A stretch of DNA of 50,098 nt from Elusimicrobia bacterium RIFOXYD2_FULL_34_15 (GTDB lineage: Bacteria; Elusimicrobiota; UBA8919). Within the stretch, counting starts at the first letter, position 1. Every line of letters begins with the position of its first letter. Under the pieces are notes generated by a model. That model was given only the letters and a program-made list of their open reading frames with translations, searched no databases and was not told the origin of the DNA. Of this stretch, positions 3,420 through 50,022 are shown one piece after another. The stretch is from contig MGVS01000009.1 of the NCBI GenBank assembly GCA_001800605.1, positions 497 to 50,594 on the forward strand, given 5' to 3'. The translations under genes were made by a program, and so were the position numbers.

Positions 3420-4083
3420 ACCGCAAAAGCTAAAAACAATATTTTTGATTATTTTCTTATTTTGCAGTACTGTTTTTTTATTTTCGGCAGAAAAAGATAT
3501 TTCGCTTACTTTTCATGACGGTCCAAACCCTAATTCTACACCGCAATTATTGAAAATTCTTGATGATGCAAATGTAAAGGCAACTTTTTTTGTGGTTGGC
3601 AAGATGGTTAAAAAGTATCCGGAGTTGCTAAAGGAGATTTATAAAAGAGGACATCAAGTAGCGGTACATACATATAATCACAGGAATCTAACTACACTTT
3701 CAACTTCTGAAATTTTGTCGGAACTTTTAAGGACAAAAATTTTGATAAAACAAATAATAGGCATTGACACTTACTTGTTTACTCCTCCGGGCGGACGCTA
3801 TAATGAGAAGGTTATTGAAACTGCAATGTCGTGCGGTTTTAGGATGGCTTTGTGGTCGGTTTTCCCGGAAGATCACAGAAATCCATCGCCAATAATTTAT
3901 GAAAAAGTTGTAACTAATTCACGTGACGGAAGTGTGGTTCTTCTGCATAACGGGCCGCCGGATACTTTGGACGCGCTTCCAAAAATAATAGAAAAGCTTA
4001 GAGCAAGAGGTTTTAAGTTTAGTACACTTTCGCAATTACTTGCTCAGGGAAAAGGAAAACACATTGTCTATCCTCGCAATTGA
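3388..4083 (+). CDS. Exported NodB-type polysaccharide deacetylase-like protein with altered catalytic motif
   Basis: The 231-residue protein starts with a basic stretch and a hydrophobic signal/anchor (about 14-33), so the NodB domain should face the periplasm. NodB landmarks are TFHDGP (41-46), the zinc-binding HTYNH (94-98), FTPPGG (131-136) and LLHNG (185-189). In canonical carbohydrate esterase family 4 enzymes the first motif is TFDDGP, whose first Asp is the catalytic base. Here that residue is His43, while metal-ligand Asp44 is kept. The usual Arg before motif 3 is also absent. It may be a divergent deacetylase or a non-catalytic binding form. It overlaps thpR by 32 bp and is overlapped by ruvX. 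Confidence 0.82.
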   Translation: MLLKNFNWNFKPQKLKTIFLIIFLFCSTVFLFSAEKDISLTFHDGPNPNSTPQLLKILDDANVKATFFVVGKMVKKYPELLKEIYKRGHQVAVHTYNHRNLTTLSTSEILSELLRTKILIKQIIGIDTYLFTPPGGRYNEKVIETAMSCGFRMALWSVFPEDHRNPSPIIYEKVVTNSRDGSVVLLHNGPPDTLDALPKIIEKLRARGFKFSTLSQLLAQGKGKHIVYPRN

Positions 4084-6480: not shown

Positions 6481-6560
6481 CAGTAACGGGTAATGAGTAA
6501 TGGGTAATCCTTCGACAAGCTCAGGACAGGCTGAGTAATGGGTAAAGAGTAACGGGTAAG
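6481..6560. repeat. Dispersed repeat: GGGTAATGAGTAA phrases around a CTTCGACAAGCTCAGGAC core
   Basis: The stretch from 6504 to about 6547 matches 13764-13807 at all but a couple of positions. Flanking it are reiterated GGGTAATGAGTAA/AACGGGTAA phrases. A reverse-complement fragment of the same phrase family occurs near 10656-10672. It lies between the anti-sigma gene and the Spy-like gene and stops at that gene's ribosome binding site. Confidence 0.8.
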
Positions 6561-10698: not shown

Positions 10699-12093
10699 AT
10701 GCCTTTTATGGATATAATAAAACAAAATGACATTGAATTAATCCTTAGTAAAATGCTTACCGCAGGCGGTGATTTTGCTGAAATTTATTTTGAAGAAGGT
10801 GATAGTGCAGGTTTTACTTTTATTGATCAAAAAGTTGAAGTATCAGCGTCAGGAACAACCAGCGGTTGCGGACTGAGATTAATAAAAGAAGGACAGACAT
10901 ATTTTGCATCACAAGCTAATCCCTCTGCTGTTTCACTAATTTTGCTGGCAGGAAAACTTTCGGGTCAGTTACAGCAATCGCAGGAACCTCGTACCACAAG
11001 GGTACAGGGTGAAGCAATAAAAATTGAATTACCTTCGGTTGCAAAAATTACTGAGGAGCTTCAGCCATATTTGGAAGTAATTGAAAATTTAGATAAATCC
11101 ATCAGGGAAACATCGTCTCAAATCAGGCAGGTTTCCTTCCGTATATCAGCCGGAAATAAAAAGTTTTTTATTGCTAATTCTCAAAAAACAATTGCATTAA
11201 ATAAAAGGTCATCGGCAATTTTTACGGTATCGGTAGTTGTTTCAGACGGTAAAATTACCCAGACCGCTCATGAAGTAATTGCGGAAGAAGCTCTTAATAA
11301 AATAAAATTAGAAAATATAAAAAAGATTGTATCCGTTGCATATCAAAGAGCATCTAATTTACTGAATAATGCGATACCTTCTCCGGCAGGAGAAATGCCG
11401 ATAGTCATATCGTCAACTGCCGGCGGTACAATGATTCACGAGGCAATAGGACATTCTCTTGAGGCCGATGCTGTACAAAAAGGTATTTCACCGGTATATT
11501 TAGGGAAAATCGGTAAAAAAGTTGCATCAGAAAAAATTACGGTCTTTGATAATTCTACATTGGAAGGTTTCAGGGGTTCTTATAAATATGATGACGAGGG
11601 AACGCCTGGCCAGAAAACTGTACTTGTTGAAAATGGTATTTTAAAAAATTATCTTTACGATTTGTTTACTTCCAAAAAAGATAATGTTAAATCAACCGGT
11701 AACGGTCGCAGGGAGTCGTATCATCACAAACCCATACCGAGGATGTCGAACACGTATATTGCACCCGGAAATGATAATCCCGAAGATATTATAAAAAGCG
11801 TTAAAAAAGGTATTTTTGTAACTAAAATGGGCGGCGGTCAGGTTAATACAGCAAACGGGGATTTTATTTTTGAGGTTGAAGAAGGTTACGAATTAAATGA
11901 CGGAAAAATAGGAAGGATGCTGAGAAATGCATCATTGATAGGAAACGGGCCCGAAATATTAAATTCTATTGATATGGTAGGAAACGATATCGGTTGGCAG
12001 CCGGGGACTTGCGGTAAAGACGGGCAGGGAGTTCCGGTTTTAGACGGCCAGCCCACATTGCGGATTCCAAAGATTACAGTAGGTGGAACATGA
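10699..12093 (+). CDS. tldD: TldD-type metalloprotease
   Basis: The 464-residue protein matches the TldD/PmbA family. The zinc-site helix HEAIGHSLEAD puts HExxxH at His247, Glu248 and His252, which assigns it to TldD rather than the catalytically silent PmbA/TldE. GGGQVNTANGDFIFEVEEGY is in the conserved C-terminal region. TldD and TldE together degrade unfolded or modified peptides. No tldE is present here. An alternative ATG lies at 10708; the one at 10699 abuts repeat DNA. It overlaps the UbiA gene by ATGA. Confidence 0.92.
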   Translation: MPFMDIIKQNDIELILSKMLTAGGDFAEIYFEEGDSAGFTFIDQKVEVSASGTTSGCGLRLIKEGQTYFASQANPSAVSLILLAGKLSGQLQQSQEPRTTRVQGEAIKIELPSVAKITEELQPYLEVIENLDKSIRETSSQIRQVSFRISAGNKKFFIANSQKTIALNKRSSAIFTVSVVVSDGKITQTAHEVIAEEALNKIKLENIKKIVSVAYQRASNLLNNAIPSPAGEMPIVISSTAGGTMIHEAIGHSLEADAVQKGISPVYLGKIGKKVASEKITVFDNSTLEGFRGSYKYDDEGTPGQKTVLVENGILKNYLYDLFTSKKDNVKSTGNGRRESYHHKPIPRMSNTYIAPGNDNPEDIIKSVKKGIFVTKMGGGQVNTANGDFIFEVEEGYELNDGKIGRMLRNASLIGNGPEILNSIDMVGNDIGWQPGTCGKDGQGVPVLDGQPTLRIPKITVGGT

Positions 12094-44600: not shown

Positions 44601-45971
44601 ATGAAAATGATAAAGAAAAAGAAATTTAGATTTAAACTAAAATCGCGAGTTCTTAAAAAAAGTGTAATAAAGTCAAGTGGGAAAAAGAAACCGAAAAAAC
44701 TGTTGTCGGAAAATAGAATTCGCAATGGAGATCGCAGGCATCCCACAGGCTTGGTTGCTGGTTTAAATCAAAGCCATGACGATATGGGAAAGAAGATTCA
44801 GCAACAAGCGGATGAGTTGAAGGAAAAAACCGGACAATTAAAAAGTGGGGCAGAAAAGCAAATAAGGTCAGAAGAACAGATTTACATCCTTACTAAAGCT
44901 ATAGAATCGACTGAGGACGGTATTTTTATTATCGATGCCCAAAATCCAAAATTTCCTATTATCTATACCAACCAATCATTCCGGAAAATGACCGGCTATG
45001 TAAAAGGGGAAATACTGGGTCAAAATTATTTTTTGCTGTATGGAAATTATGCTGGTCATCGTATTGTTGAGAAAATAAAACAAACTATTCACAAAGGTAA
45101 ATCTTTTCATGGAGAGATGCTTAATTTTCGGAAGAACGGCAAAAAATATTGGAATTTATTGCGTATTGCACCGGTGTATGATGCGAGAGGTGCCGTTACC
45201 CATTATACAGGGATTCAGACAGATGTTACCTTGATGCGGGAGAAGGAGTTAGAAATTGTTGAACAGCGTGAGGAACTTTTGCACGTTACCAGGGTAGGAA
45301 AACTTGCAGAGTTTGTCTCTTCATTGGCTCACGAAATTAGCCAGCCTCTTACGGCAATTCTTTCTTATGCCCAGGCTGCCCAGCGTATGCTCGCAGGAAG
45401 GGACCCTGAACTTCGGGAGATTCTTCAGTACATCATTAATGACGACCAGCGTGCGGGTGAGGTTATCCAGCGATTACGTTCACTTTTAAAGAAGAGTGCG
45501 TCTGAAATGAAGCCTCTGGATATCAATACTCTCATTAATGATACTATTATTCTTATGACAACTGATGCTACCGTAAGGAATATTTCTTTTAAACTTGATC
45601 TGGAGAGTAATCTTCCTCTTGTACGCGGCGACCGGATACAACTGCAACAGGTTATTCTGAATCTTATCAGTAATAGTTTCGAAGCCATGGAAGGTAATCA
45701 AGACTTCAATGAAATATTGATTCACACATCGCGTAAAGATGTCGACACAATTATTGTGAAGATAAAGGATCCCGGATGCGGAATCCCTGCACACAATATA
45801 CCTAAGCTCTTCACTCATTTTTTTACGAGCAAGCCGGATGGTTTGGGCATGGGGTTATCTATTAGCCGCTCCATTGTTGAGTCGCATGGCGGGCGTTTGG
45901 ATGCAAAAAATAATCCTGACCGCGGCGCAACTTTTTATTTCACTATTCCTATCGGCACGAAGGATGCTTAA
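44601..45971 (+). CDS. PAS/LOV-like sensor histidine kinase, FixL type
   Basis: The 456-residue cytoplasmic kinase has a very basic N-terminus, a coiled coil (about 55-90) and a LOV-like PAS domain (about 92-215: IIYTNQSFRKMTGYVKGEIL, then GQNYFLLYG and HYTGIQTDVT). HisKA follows with His244 (SLAHEISQPLTAILSYAQAA), as in FixL, then HATPase_c (NLISNSFEAM, GLGMGLSISRSI). In photoactive LOV domains the motif is GxNCRFLQ; here Tyr143 replaces the flavin-reactive Cys, so blue-light adduct chemistry is not expected. It overlaps the FixJ-like regulator by one base (TAATG) and is surely its partner. Confidence 0.92.
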   Translation: MKMIKKKKFRFKLKSRVLKKSVIKSSGKKKPKKLLSENRIRNGDRRHPTGLVAGLNQSHDDMGKKIQQQADELKEKTGQLKSGAEKQIRSEEQIYILTKAIESTEDGIFIIDAQNPKFPIIYTNQSFRKMTGYVKGEILGQNYFLLYGNYAGHRIVEKIKQTIHKGKSFHGEMLNFRKNGKKYWNLLRIAPVYDARGAVTHYTGIQTDVTLMREKELEIVEQREELLHVTRVGKLAEFVSSLAHEISQPLTAILSYAQAAQRMLAGRDPELREILQYIINDDQRAGEVIQRLRSLLKKSASEMKPLDINTLINDTIILMTTDATVRNISFKLDLESNLPLVRGDRIQLQQVILNLISNSFEAMEGNQDFNEILIHTSRKDVDTIIVKIKDPGCGIPAHNIPKLFTHFFTSKPDGLGMGLSISRSIVESHGGRLDAKNNPDRGATFYFTIPIGTKDA

Positions 45972-46597
45972 TGAATAACGGCAATTCGTTTATATATGTC
46001 GTTGATGACAATGTCTCTATATGTAGAGCATTAACCATATTGTTAAGATCGCACGGGTTTAAGGTTGAGACATTTACCCGAGCATCAGATTTTTTAGCTT
46101 TTAAGCATCCTAAATTGCCCTCATGCCTGGTTCTTGACATCCAACTGCCGGATATAAACGGTCTTGACCTTCAGGAGGCAATGGCAGCACGGAAACTTAT
46201 CATACCCATTATTTTTATTACCGGACACGGGGATATACCGATGAGCGTGAGGGGCATGAAGGCAGGAGCTATTGATTTTCTTCCAAAACCCGTTACTGCA
46301 AAAAAACTGCTTAATGCTGTTACGCTTGCCATCTCAAAAAGTAAAATTCAAAATAAAGAACTCGCCGAAATATCAAAAATTAAACGACGCATTAAGACTT
46401 TGTCTCCGCGCGAACTGGAAGTTTTTCGTTTAGTAGCCAATGGGATGCTGAGTAAACAGATTGCATACAAACGGGGAACTGCTCTTCAAACAATAAAGGT
46501 TCATCGCAGTCGTGTGATGCAGAAGATGAAAGCCGAAACTGTAACAGAACTTATTCACTTCGCTAATAAAGCAGGTATTACTTCCTCTAAAACATAA
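45971..46597 (+). CDS. FixJ-type response regulator (receiver + LuxR HTH)
   Basis: The 208-residue protein has a receiver with Asp12-Asp13 (YVVDDN), phosphoacceptor Asp56 (LVLDIQLPDING), the Thr in FITGHGDIPMSV and the Lys in FLPKPV. These are features of the FixJ/NodW/TodT group. The C-terminal LuxR-type helix-turn-helix is at about 138-200 (LSPRELEVFRLVANGMLSKQIA, then TIKVHRSRVMQKM). It overlaps its kinase gene by one base. The 22-bp sequence found before 48478 and 49603 is a candidate binding site. Confidence 0.94.
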   Translation: MNNGNSFIYVVDDNVSICRALTILLRSHGFKVETFTRASDFLAFKHPKLPSCLVLDIQLPDINGLDLQEAMAARKLIIPIIFITGHGDIPMSVRGMKAGAIDFLPKPVTAKKLLNAVTLAISKSKIQNKELAEISKIKRRIKTLSPRELEVFRLVANGMLSKQIAYKRGTALQTIKVHRSRVMQKMKAETVTELIHFANKAGITSSKT

Positions 46598-46649: not shown

Positions 46650-48314
46650 ATGGAAAACGAAAGTAAAATATTTAAGATAAACATAGTATGTACATTAATT
46701 TCGCTCGCATTATTTTTGTTCATACCGGGGGGAACCATTACTTATGCTGATTCCCCATCGGCACTTCCCATACACATAAATAAAATCAGCATTGTTGTGC
46801 ACGATATTTATGATTTCAAAAAATCAGAGAGATTAAGTTTTTTGTACAGTTGGGCGAACAAATTGCACAAAAAAACAAATGATAATGTTGTACGCAGGGA
46901 ATTGTTATTCAAAGAAGGGGACAAATATGATCCCGCGCTCATAGTTGAATCAGAAAGAATTCTGCGTAGTTATCCATACTTTCGAAAAGTATCTATACAT
47001 GTTTCGGAACCTGAAAAAGATAAGGTGAATATAATTGTTGAAACCCACGACGCCTGGACAACCGAATTCCAAGCCGATTGGGGAACAACCGCATCGCAAA
47101 CCAACTGGCTTCTCGGTTTCGAAGAACTAAATGTGCTTGGACAAGGACAAAGAATAAAAGTTTCATATAAAAAAAATCTTGATGAAAAAATACAAACTTT
47201 TGTATTTCAGGATCCAAGATTCTTAAACTCACACGTCAATCTAAAAACTTACTTTGACAAGGGTGAAAAAAGTGAATCGTGGGGGTTACAATGTAATCGG
47301 CCATTTTTTGCTACGATTGCAAAATGGTCTGCAGGATTCGATTTAGCATCTCAAAAGGAAAGTCAGGAACTTTTAACAAACGGTGAAAAAACTTCAAGCT
47401 TTGATGCGTATCATAGAACTGCAAATATTTTTACCGGCTACGCGATTACCGCAACTCACGACAAAAGAAGCGCTGTAACGTTGACAGGTAATACAGGCTC
47501 TACTGTGTTCTCAAATATTGCCGTACCCAACGATGTTTCTCCTCCCATAGATCGAAAATTAAACGGTGGTACAATTTCATATTCCTTTGAAAAGATTTCT
47601 TTCATCAAAGAAATGCATATCACAAAATTTGACAGAGACGAAGATTTTTTCCTCGGTCCACAACATGTAGTAAGTTACGGTATGTTTCCAAAAAAACTTG
47701 GGTCTACGGAAGAAGAAAAGGTATTTGAATATTATTATGGCAGGGGTGTACCAATAAATTCAGGTCAATTTGCACTATTTAATCTTTATTCTAGAAATCA
47801 ATTTAGGCAGAACATGGATAATACAGGTAAACAGGCGATATCATCGCAATACTATCATCGCATCGCAAGACAGAATACATTAGTTGTAGATATGGAATTT
47901 ACAAAACTTATTAATCCGGATAACGATAAAGAATTACTTCTCGGTGGCGAGAGTGGACTCCGGGGATATTCAGTGCGAGAATTCAGCGGCAATAAAAAAT
48001 TTTTTTTCAGTATCGAAGACCGTTTATTTCTAAAGGATGATGTTTGGAAATTATTTTCAGTAGGTGGCGCATTATTTTTCGATTCAGGAATGGTTTGGAG
48101 AAAAGATGAATCTGTAGATTTAAACGAAATTAAAAGTGATGTCGGCATAGGTTTTCGGTTTGGATTAACGAGATCAAGTACTGCAAAAGTAGTAAGGGTA
48201 GACCTTGCCTATGCATTAAATGGAAATAATAGGGATAATCGCTGGGTCTTAACAATAAAATCCGGTCAGATATTCAATCCTAAAGGGATTAATGATTTTA
48301 GATCGGACAACTAA
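46650..48314 (+). CDS. Omp85/BamA-like outer-membrane protein with one POTRA domain
   Basis: The 554-residue protein has an extended signal sequence (about 1-33), one recognisable POTRA-like domain (about 85-150: VVRRELLFKEGDKYDPALIVESERI-type, split here, then YPYFRKVSIHV and DKVNIIVETHD) and a surface-antigen barrel. The Omp85 lid motif appears as LRGY (437-440) in GGESGLRGYSVREF. True BamA is longer, with several POTRAs, so this is an accessory Omp85 member. Substrate unknown. No Shine-Dalgarno is seen, and no promoter motif like that of the later genes. Located between the FixJ-like regulator and its putative target genes. Confidence 0.85.
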   Translation: MENESKIFKINIVCTLISLALFLFIPGGTITYADSPSALPIHINKISIVVHDIYDFKKSERLSFLYSWANKLHKKTNDNVVRRELLFKEGDKYDPALIVESERILRSYPYFRKVSIHVSEPEKDKVNIIVETHDAWTTEFQADWGTTASQTNWLLGFEELNVLGQGQRIKVSYKKNLDEKIQTFVFQDPRFLNSHVNLKTYFDKGEKSESWGLQCNRPFFATIAKWSAGFDLASQKESQELLTNGEKTSSFDAYHRTANIFTGYAITATHDKRSAVTLTGNTGSTVFSNIAVPNDVSPPIDRKLNGGTISYSFEKISFIKEMHITKFDRDEDFFLGPQHVVSYGMFPKKLGSTEEEKVFEYYYGRGVPINSGQFALFNLYSRNQFRQNMDNTGKQAISSQYYHRIARQNTLVVDMEFTKLINPDNDKELLLGGESGLRGYSVREFSGNKKFFFSIEDRLFLKDDVWKLFSVGGALFFDSGMVWRKDESVDLNEIKSDVGIGFRFGLTRSSTAKVVRVDLAYALNGNNRDNRWVLTIKSGQIFNPKGINDFRSDN

Positions 48315-48420
48315 TTCCAAGCGTAACCAACTGTTGATTACTCTCATCGAATTTCACTGATTAACCGCAAATTTTTAGTACCTTCTATCTAATAGCAGAC
48401 CGTTCTAATCTAAGGGCTTG

Positions 48421-48464
48421 TTATACCTAAGTACAATTGACTGCTTCCTGAATACCCCTATAAT
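48421..48464 (+). promoter_or_regulatory. Putative FixJ-regulated promoter of the DUF1207 gene
   Basis: The 22 bases 48421-48442, including TACCTAAGTACAATTGACT, are identical to 49553-49574. The final TTGACT is the -35, followed by a 16-base spacer and TATAAT (48459-48464). The ATG is 13 bases beyond, giving a very short leader. Confidence 0.75.
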
Positions 48465-48477
48465 GTAAACATAAAGA

Positions 48478-49314
48478 ATGAAAAATATTATATTTTGTTA
48501 TGTTTTATTAACTGTTCTCGCAGGTCATGTATGGACAGAGGTTAATACAACACCTATAACCGGGCTGGCCCCGCATCCGGATGAGCTTTTTGTTCCGCTT
48601 CGGGGGGACCCGCGCGAATTGCATTTTGCACTACGCCTTGCATTTCCCCGGAACGATGGGACAATCGCGGAAGTGGCGGTCGGGCATTATTATGGAATTT
48701 ACCGCTGGCGGCTACCCAAAGACATCGGCACTATGCAAATTAATATCGGGGGTGGGATTTTTCCACGTTTCTACTTCTCGGATACCAAAGACCTTAAAGT
48801 CATCGACTTCTATGGCAATGTTCCGTTCGACATACGTATAGGTAAATGGTCCGGCCGCTTTATGTTTTATCATGTCAGTTCTCACTTGGGAGACGATTAC
48901 ATCCGTACGAACGGTCAAATGCCCAATAGTAATTCGTGGAACAGCTTGCGATCTCTTTTATCTTATGATGTTGGTTATTCCCTGCGCTTGTACAGTGGAT
49001 ATACCTATCACCTCCTGGTTTTTCCGCCGGAACAAAAAAAAGAAGCTTTTCAAACCGGGTTCGAGATTATTTCCAAAGTTTTCAGAAATGGTTATACACA
49101 AGTTTACTGGGCTAATGATTTCCAGTGGTGGGAACGGACACAGTGGAAACTCATGTTCAACTCGCAGATTGGGATCAAAACAGGTCGAAAACCAAAAATC
49201 GGGAGAGGTATTTCATATTTTCTGGAGTTCACAACAGGCCCGGAATATTACGGCCGTTTTTTTAATAGCGAAGAAACTCGTTTAGGTTTGGGTGCCAAAT
49301 TCGAAATCAATTGA
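48478..49314 (+). CDS. DUF1207 family exported protein
   Basis: The 278-residue protein has a signal peptide (about 1-20) and a beta-rich body with DELFVPLRGDPRELHFALRL and later YGIYRWRLP, IDFYGNVPFDIRIGKWSGRF and DDYIRTNG. It matches the DUF1207 family of predicted outer-membrane barrels; function unknown. It ends GLGAKFEIN. Its base composition is noticeably more GC-rich than the FecR cluster, and the whole 44600-50022 segment may have been acquired together. It is controlled by the shared 22-bp element and is followed by a DUF3185 gene 10 bases later. Confidence 0.82.
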   Translation: MKNIIFCYVLLTVLAGHVWTEVNTTPITGLAPHPDELFVPLRGDPRELHFALRLAFPRNDGTIAEVAVGHYYGIYRWRLPKDIGTMQINIGGGIFPRFYFSDTKDLKVIDFYGNVPFDIRIGKWSGRFMFYHVSSHLGDDYIRTNGQMPNSNSWNSLRSLLSYDVGYSLRLYSGYTYHLLVFPPEQKKEAFQTGFEIISKVFRNGYTQVYWANDFQWWERTQWKLMFNSQIGIKTGRKPKIGRGISYFLEFTTGPEYYGRFFNSEETRLGLGAKFEIN

Positions 49315-49324
49315 GGAGTTCAAT

Positions 49325-49531
49325 ATGAATAAAGCCATATCAATCGCATTTCTTACAATAGGAATTATCTTAATAATCTATGGTATCAATGCCTCAAACT
49401 CATTTAGTTCCGATGTCTCGCGTTTCTTCAATGGTTCTCCCACCGACAAAACTATCTGGTTTCTGATCGGAGGTATTACTGCGGCTATCTTTGGAATTTA
49501 TAATATATTTCGCGGGTCAGAGGATAAGTAA
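49325..49531 (+). CDS. DUF3185 small membrane protein
   Basis: The 68-residue protein has two transmembrane helices (about 4-22 and 45-64) linked by SSDVSRFFNGSPTDKTIWFL, the hallmark of DUF3185. The function is unknown; members often occur near stress-related genes. The ATG at 49325 follows GAGGAG by 7 bases; an earlier in-frame start at 49292 would precede the DUF1207 stop and lacks family support. It is in one transcript with DUF1207. Confidence 0.9.
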   Translation: MNKAISIAFLTIGIILIIYGINASNSFSSDVSRFFNGSPTDKTIWFLIGGITAAIFGIYNIFRGSEDK

Positions 49532-49552
49532 ATTCCTAAAGAAAATCCGGCA

Positions 49553-49596
49553 TTATACCTAAGTACAATTGACTATGTTTTGAACTTGCCTACAAT
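49553..49596 (+). promoter_or_regulatory. Putative FixJ-regulated promoter of the terminal receiver gene
   Basis: It is identical to 48421-48442 over 22 bases. TTGACT (49569-49574), a 16-base spacer and TACAAT (49591-49596) follow the same geometry. The ATG is 6 bases after the -10, so the transcript should be leaderless. Confidence 0.75.
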
Positions 49597-49602
49597 ACTA
49601 TT

Positions 49603-50022
49603 ATGAAGTTAAAGAAATTACAATTAGAGAAGTATGATGAAACGCCATCAACCAAAAAACAAATTTTTATAGTCGATGATGACGAGTCTATATGCCGCGC
49701 GCTCAAATGTTTGTTGATGACTTATGGGTTTAAAGTGAATACCTTTCTTTCTGCAGAAAAATTTTTCAATGATGTGCCGAATAATGTTCGAGGCTGTTTG
49801 ATTATGGATATTCATATGCCGGGATTGGACGGGTGGGAAGCGCTAAAAATGATTATTAAATCCGGGTCAAAGCGTCCGGTTATTATTATTTCAGCGGAAA
49901 AAAATGGCGGACTGAGAGAGCGGGTTTTAAAAACCAATGCCGTGGGATATTTTCAAAAACCGGTGAACGGTCAAGAGTTGGTCGATTTAATCAATAAGAC
50001 TTATAGCCGGTCACAAAACTAA
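49603..50022 (+). CDS. Receiver-only response regulator
   Basis: The 139-residue protein is a single receiver domain after a polar N-terminus. Its features are IFIVDDDESICRAL with the acidic pair at about 25-26, phosphoacceptor Asp69 (LIMDIHMPGLDGW), Ser in IIISAEKN and Lys in YFQKPV. It closely resembles the receiver of the FixJ-like protein at 45971 (CRALxxLLxxxGFKVxTF in both), so it may compete for, or drain, phosphoryl groups from the same kinase. It has no output domain. Its promoter shares the 22-bp motif, so it may be a feedback element. The 76 bases after it contain no gene. Confidence 0.9.
   Translation: MKLKKLQLEKYDETPSTKKQIFIVDDDESICRALKCLLMTYGFKVNTFLSAEKFFNDVPNNVRGCLIMDIHMPGLDGWEALKMIIKSGSKRPVIIISAEKNGGLRERVLKTNAVGYFQKPVNGQELVDLINKTYSRSQN

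Follow-up and report, generated by a model that had tools for sequence, protein, structure and literature searches.

Two transcription units in an Elusimicrobiota genome are preceded by an identical 22-bp element, to which the FixJ/StyR-like response regulator encoded beside them very probably docks. The element, TTATACCTAAGTACAATTGACT, occurs with the same letters as two exact copies on the plus strand, at 48421-48442 and 49553-49574 of the window (the whole 50,098-nucleotide stretch analysed here). In the mechanism that we propose, each element would consist of an operator plus the -35 box of a sigma-70-type promoter. A phosphorylated dimer of the regulator encoded at 45971 would bind the inverted repeat rTTATACC-NN-GGTAYAAT, whose centre lies some 42 bp upstream of the predicted start, in the position of a class-II activator, and would switch on both a DUF1207-DUF3185 unit (envelope) and a unit that encodes a stand-alone receiver. 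This receiver, which carries the kinase-docking helix of the regulator, would bind the same kinase and limit signalling as FixT does FixL. We estimate the probability of this explanation as a whole at about 0.8; binding, activation as opposed to repression, the signal and the feedback are the steps that we infer. The two copies and a regulon reading of them had been put forward in a preliminary description; the observation was confirmed and there is good support for the regulon, while the motif, the FixL label and the cause of the identity of the copies are corrected below.

The genes concerned all lie on the plus strand. The gene of a histidine kinase (44601..45971), assigned by Pfam and homology as a LOV-like PAS domain (Cys replaced by Tyr) followed by HisKA and HATPase, abuts the gene of the response regulator (45971..46597), a receiver plus GerE HTH protein of the StyR/FixJ type that is predicted to bind the operator. 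The gene of an Omp85/POTRA outer-membrane protein (46650..48314) comes next, with no operator copy before it, and both units lie downstream of this order. Unit 1 comprises the genes of a DUF1207 protein (48478..49314) and of a small DUF3185 membrane protein (49325..49531), the latter present in other regulator-linked loci too, and forms a cassette between the two repeats. Unit 2 encodes a stand-alone receiver of 139 aa (49603..50022) with intact phospho-acceptor residues, the proposed feedback protein. The domains were confirmed by Pfam (PAS-HisKA-HATPase, Response_reg-GerE, Omp85/POTRA, DUF1207, DUF3185 and Response_reg). No operator copy was found before the kinase-regulator genes of the window, so that in this locus the regulator does not come under its own loop.

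Sequence searches located the operator and the promoter boxes of each unit on the plus strand. Operator copy 1 (48420..48437) is an imperfect 18-bp inverted repeat, GTTATACC-TA-AGTACAAT, whose final base doubles as the T that opens the -35 box TTGACT (48437-48442); the -10 box TATAAT (48459..48464) lies beyond a 16-bp spacer, and the ATG 13 nt further on. Operator copy 2 (49552..49569), delimited with a profile of 116 sites described below, reads ATTATACC-TA-AGTACAAT and is followed by -35 TTGACT (49569-49574), a 16-bp spacer, -10 TACAAT (49591..49596) and an ATG 6 nt beyond, orthologous promoters being spaced alike. Each 22-bp repeat (48421..48442 and 49553..49574) thus holds operator and -35 box together. 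The corresponding family consensus is rTTATACC-NN-GGTAYAAT, an 18-bp inverted repeat abutting a TTGAY -35 box with the -10 box 16 bp beyond. The window sequence therefore bears out the first description of an identical pair ending in a -35 box, with 16-base spacers and almost no leader. Since the receiver ATG lies 6 nt past the -10 box, at the expected start, the mRNA of unit 2 is predicted to be leaderless. Another exact direct repeat longer than 22 bp, GTAATCCTTCGACAAGCTCAGGACAGG at 6504 and 13764, is also present in the window; it is apparently dispersed and unrelated to the operator locus.

A motif search of the genome, suggested in the preliminary description, was run. With up to three mismatches, no third copy of the 22-bp element was found in the window, where shuffles expect 0.02, and no further copy was found across the 2.47-Mb genome (G000), so that the element is restricted to this one locus. 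The operator pattern with up to one mismatch likewise gave only the two window copies in this genome; at three mismatches it gave 17+15 matches against 15+14 for the reversed pattern, which is background level, and hence no extra targets are claimed there. A pair that arose by chance or belongs to a dispersed repeat would be in keeping with a genome that has just two copies, but we regard it as next to impossible in view of the expectation of 0.02 in the window, the lack of any other genome match at up to one mismatch and the conservation of the element across genomes; the co-occurrence with the regulator described below refutes it.

This conservation was evident in the seven named MAG contigs with a regulator 71-83% identical to that of the window: all of them have between one and three related elements near the regulator gene. 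The form common to them is an inverted repeat whose last base again opens a TTGAY -35 box; the best dyad, in L009, is the perfect ATTATACCTAGGTATAAT. A profile of 116 distinct sites was conserved from -2 to +20 around TATACC and at a TATAAT-like -10 box, and at little else. Conservation of the 20-mer in this profile is partly built in, because that pattern was used for collecting the sites, whereas the -10 box, its spacing, the flanking T and the purine lay outside the search pattern. The spacing to the -10 box was 16 bp in 63 sites and 17 bp in 50 (113/116 together). When all gapped palindromes were counted without bias in seven close loci, TATAC-N4-GTATA and TACC-N2-GGTA ranked first.

The genes behind the operators in other genomes, taken from our own ORF predictions, individual cases of which may be wrong, include receivers, an MlaE-type lipid transport operon, and genes for Fe-SOD, peroxiredoxin, a ferritin-like protein, a BON-domain protein, a low-affinity iron permease, BrkB/YihY-type, DUF3309 and GlsB-type (Transgly_assoc) proteins, among others. 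As annotated, this set has the look of a response to envelope and oxidative stress. The ATG is located exactly 6 nt past the -10 box at 13 sites, including 49597-49603 of the window, and this is the commonest short distance. These sites precede receiver, Mla and other genes in several genera of both Elusimicrobiota and Omnitrophota, a placement that predicts leaderless mRNAs in the two phyla. At one locus, L230 (G528:C21), the gene behind the operator site near 3504 is that of sigma-54 (RpoN), with its ATG 6 nt past the -10 box.

Co-occurrence of the motif with the regulator was analysed using the pattern TATACCNNRGTAYAATTGAY with up to one mismatch and, as control, the reversed pattern. Among 341 Elusimicrobiota genomes the pattern was present in 9, namely in 6/6 of those with a regulator orthologue (at least 71% identity) and in 3/335 of those without; each of the latter three has a single 1-mismatch match, and the reversed pattern also occurs in 3 genomes. 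Among 285 Omnitrophota genomes, where the orthologue cut-off was at least 62% identity and some regulator genes are clipped at contig ends, the motif was found in 24/26 genomes with the orthologue and in 14/259 without it, the reversed pattern occurring in 3 genomes. The Fisher p-values (4e-11 for Elusimicrobiota and 6e-23 for Omnitrophota) are overstated, because the genomes are not fully independent. Weak homologues (35-52% identity) in genomes lacking a close orthologue showed no enrichment: the motif occurred in 0/4 such Omnitrophota genomes, and of two such Elusimicrobiota genomes one was without it and the other had a single 1-mismatch match. A scan of 2.9 million viral contigs returned 24 exact matches.

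Seven of the 14 Omnitrophota exceptions have single 1-mismatch matches only, near the control level. In G563 the C-terminus of the regulator is found at the contig end, adjoining the site, and in G362 the cognate kinase and receiver are present, with no regulator detected. Five more (G460, G479, G500, G549 and G554) have good sites, with the regulator gene not detected, and these are likely to be incomplete MAGs. Sites in genomes lacking the regulator, which had been named beforehand as the finding that would speak against the regulon, are therefore mostly absent, the Omnitrophota MAGs with sites and an undetected regulator forming the part of the result that does not fit. The self-contained regulon of kinase and regulator is supported, given that the motif follows the gene of the regulator across genomes and, in G000, is confined to its locus. 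Strong conservation beside the start, together with stress and envelope genes that resemble a regulon, could also be expected of an alternative (ECF) sigma promoter inherited alongside the kinase-regulator locus. This is very improbable, as the conserved element is a two-fold symmetric dyad upstream of an ordinary TTGAY-16/17-TATAAT promoter and its presence follows the GerE regulator.

According to Pfam, the regulator of the window is the sole response regulator of the FixJ/NarL (GerE) type in its genome; a second GerE match proved sigma-like. The closest solved chain is StyR (1yio, E=3.5e-48), with FixJ next. The regulator combines a receiver bearing the phospho-acceptor Asp with a GerE HTH; D12, D13, D56 and K106 are invariant, and the recognition helix is nearly so among orthologues. 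The operator consensus of StyR, TodT and TmoT is ATAAACN4GTTTAT (PMC5874301). The window operator, ATTATAC-N4-GTACAAT, centred at about -42 from the predicted start (ATTATAC-N4-GTAYAAT in the family), therefore has the same layout, an inverted repeat with an N4 centre, and another half-site. The TAAGTA core that had been likened to FixJ-type half-sites is not the functional unit; that unit is the 18-bp inverted repeat of StyR/TodT architecture. The system further resembles StyR/TodT/TmoT in its receiver-GerE layout, the AC/GT inner bases and a site some 40 bp before the start. It differs from them in the half-site (TATAC against ATAAAC), in its targets, which are envelope and stress genes plus a receiver rather than aromatic catabolism, and in its kinase, a short LOV-like PAS kinase as opposed to TodS/StyS. 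For fixK, the literature gives the FixJ motif as GTACGTAG (PMC13327599); neither this type of site nor fixK/nif targets were found here, the operator being ATTATACC-NN-GGTATAAT and the targets envelope/stress genes.

The same regulator might instead act as a repressor, with a site that overlaps the -35 box and shuts out polymerase and with phosphorylation releasing or strengthening the repression. The 18-bp dyad does overlap the -35 box by its initial T, and the near-consensus -35 and -10 boxes could function without an activator. Class-II activators, however, typically have their sites centred near -42, as here, and the nearest relative, StyR, is an activator with a site at about -40 (PMC2442086), which makes repression a rather unlikely mode of action.

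In close genomes the stand-alone receiver retains the acidic pair, the phospho-acceptor Asp, the Ser/Thr and the Lys. It is about 60% identical to the receiver of the regulator over beta1-alpha1-beta2 and 28% identical elsewhere, helix alpha3 being nearly unrelated. Helix alpha1 is a known kinase-docking surface in two-component specificity; since it is shared, the receiver probably docks on the kinase of the regulator. In G519, G588 and G417 the operator is followed by receiver, kinase and regulator in succession, an order that would close the loop on the regulator. FixT is a single receiver that is induced by its regulator and inhibits FixL autophosphorylation (PMC7078487). The operator precedes a receiver in many genomes, which would likewise place a stand-alone receiver under its cognate regulator, and the shared helix alpha1 suggests a FixT-like feedback. 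The feedback already envisaged in the preliminary description is thus plausible, in that no target is commoner than the receiver, which has the docking helix of the regulator, while the inhibition itself is extrapolated from FixT. The FixL-FixJ-FixT systems of Sinorhizobium and Caulobacter share with the present one a kinase, a FixJ-type regulator and a single receiver, regulator-induced there. They differ in the FixJ site, GTACGTAG, which is a different element from the operator, in the receiver, which here keeps all phospho-acceptor residues and is without the 4-Cys motif, and in the fixK/nif targets, none of which were seen.

Distant homologues had been thought at an early stage to be without the motif; this was ruled out when a shorter relative of the operator was found there. 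Such relatives (e.g. AAACCTAAGTAT or ATACCAAAGTAT) accompany homologues 43-50% identical to the regulator in Acidobacteria, in Bradyrhizobium and other Alphaproteobacteria, and in Verrucomicrobia. The related operators, WWACCNNRGTAT, adjoin the homologues in Acidobacteria, Alphaproteobacteria and Verrucomicrobia, usually ahead of a stand-alone receiver gene and often 5-190 bp past the end of the regulator. Examples (WWACCNARGTAT) stand before stand-alone receivers at L020 8624, at L031 8742 and, in L022-L081, near the regulator end (Acidobacteria, Bradyrhizobium and others). An ATAC-N4-GTAT site (at least 7/8) was located within 250 bp of 45/62 stand-alone receiver genes against 72/1286 other ORFs, a count made on loci fetched with the regulator, in which 4 positives are close relatives and many loci are from Bradyrhizobium and not independent. 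The recurrence of this arrangement in several phyla points to an old, conserved unit of FixJ/StyR-type regulator, operator and receiver.

The locus of a sister species, L003 (same genome as G340), has the Omp85 gene, then a single operator, then the receiver. The window matches it leftward up to copy 1 and rightward from copy 2 on, and fusing the two window copies into one reproduces the arrangement of L003 over its whole length; consequently, either this genome gained the DUF1207-DUF3185 unit across the operator repeat or the sister lost it there. In L003 a remnant of regulator C-terminal coding sequence, ETVTELIHIVQKAGITSAKT, lies at 11750-11822 between the Omp85 gene and the operator, as the trace of a duplication there, and suggests an older order of regulator, operator and receiver, as in L004 and L008. 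In L007 an Mla operon flanked by operators on both sides separates the regulator from the receiver, and L005 resembles this arrangement as far as its contig end. Operator copies of the same genome are also more alike at free positions (0.629) than shuffled ones (0.513; reached in 0/2000 shuffles), which is consistent with recombination between operators, although recent duplication would look alike. The 22-bp identity might then be mainly a recombination scar, left by a cassette gained or lost across a repeated promoter, and not the product of selection on both operators. The break of homology at the copies, the restored sister layout and the likeness of same-genome copies are what such a scar predicts; it leaves unexplained why the dyad is conserved in further genomes and phyla, and we consider it unlikely as the main cause, while noting that scar and operator may both hold. 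Judged from the junction, the exact identity of the window copies does have a further cause, the cassette junction, which is absent from the preliminary description.

The FixL/FixJ-like label given to the pair fits the transmitter of the kinase, which is FixL-like; its sensor is a LOV-like PAS domain, and the operator is no FixJ site. The best matches of the PAS domain (44880-45245) are LOV domains (9vf7, E=8e-29; phototropins) and not FixL, whose PAS domain binds haem. The adduct cysteine of the NCRFLQ motif is replaced by Tyr in the window (NYFLLY), which sets the protein apart from LOV photoreceptor kinases; in the orthologues with this LOV-like domain the position is Tyr, Ser or Phe, and Cys in none. 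In the alignment, the Asn and Gln residues by which LOV domains grip the flavin ring are present. Natural cysteine-less LOV-like proteins respond to flavin reduction (PMC4682037), and our guess for the sensed signal would be the flavin redox state. The window PAS is like these sensors in aligning with LOV kinases while lacking the adduct cysteine, and unlike them in that the R and Q of NCRFLQ are also replaced. Input differs among relatives: in L003 (4637-8627) kaiC, kaiB and a KaiB-PAS-kinase fusion lie directly upstream of the regulator, as in a KaiC-KaiB-SasA clock output, and L009 has kaiC-kaiB plus a PAS kinase. In contrast to that clock output, the output regulator is of the FixJ/StyR type rather than RpaA, and KaiB, sought in the window's own genome, was absent. 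A bolder picture, which we offer tentatively and think doubtful as a whole, is that the operator may be both control element and seam of the regulon, cassettes (Mla, DUF1207-DUF3185) coming and going by operator recombination around a regulator-operator-receiver core fixed across phyla, with a redox-active, LOV-related flavin PAS as sensor.

We found no description of the operator letters or of the regulon gene set in the literature, nor any report of the operator or regulon of a two-component system from Elusimicrobiota or Omnitrophota, two phyla with hardly any cultivated members. In the present case sequence allows one regulator to be paired with its predicted binding site and predicted targets, and the co-occurrence test of this pairing is clean. 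The stress-type targets (SOD, peroxiredoxin, ferritin-like, BON, iron permease, BrkB/YihY and Mla) provide a hypothesis for the stimulus of the system. Feedback by a regulator-induced receiver has so far been described for FixT; since the same arrangement of regulator, operator and receiver exists in Alphaproteobacteria and Acidobacteria, the proposed receiver feedback would be testable in, for example, Bradyrhizobium.
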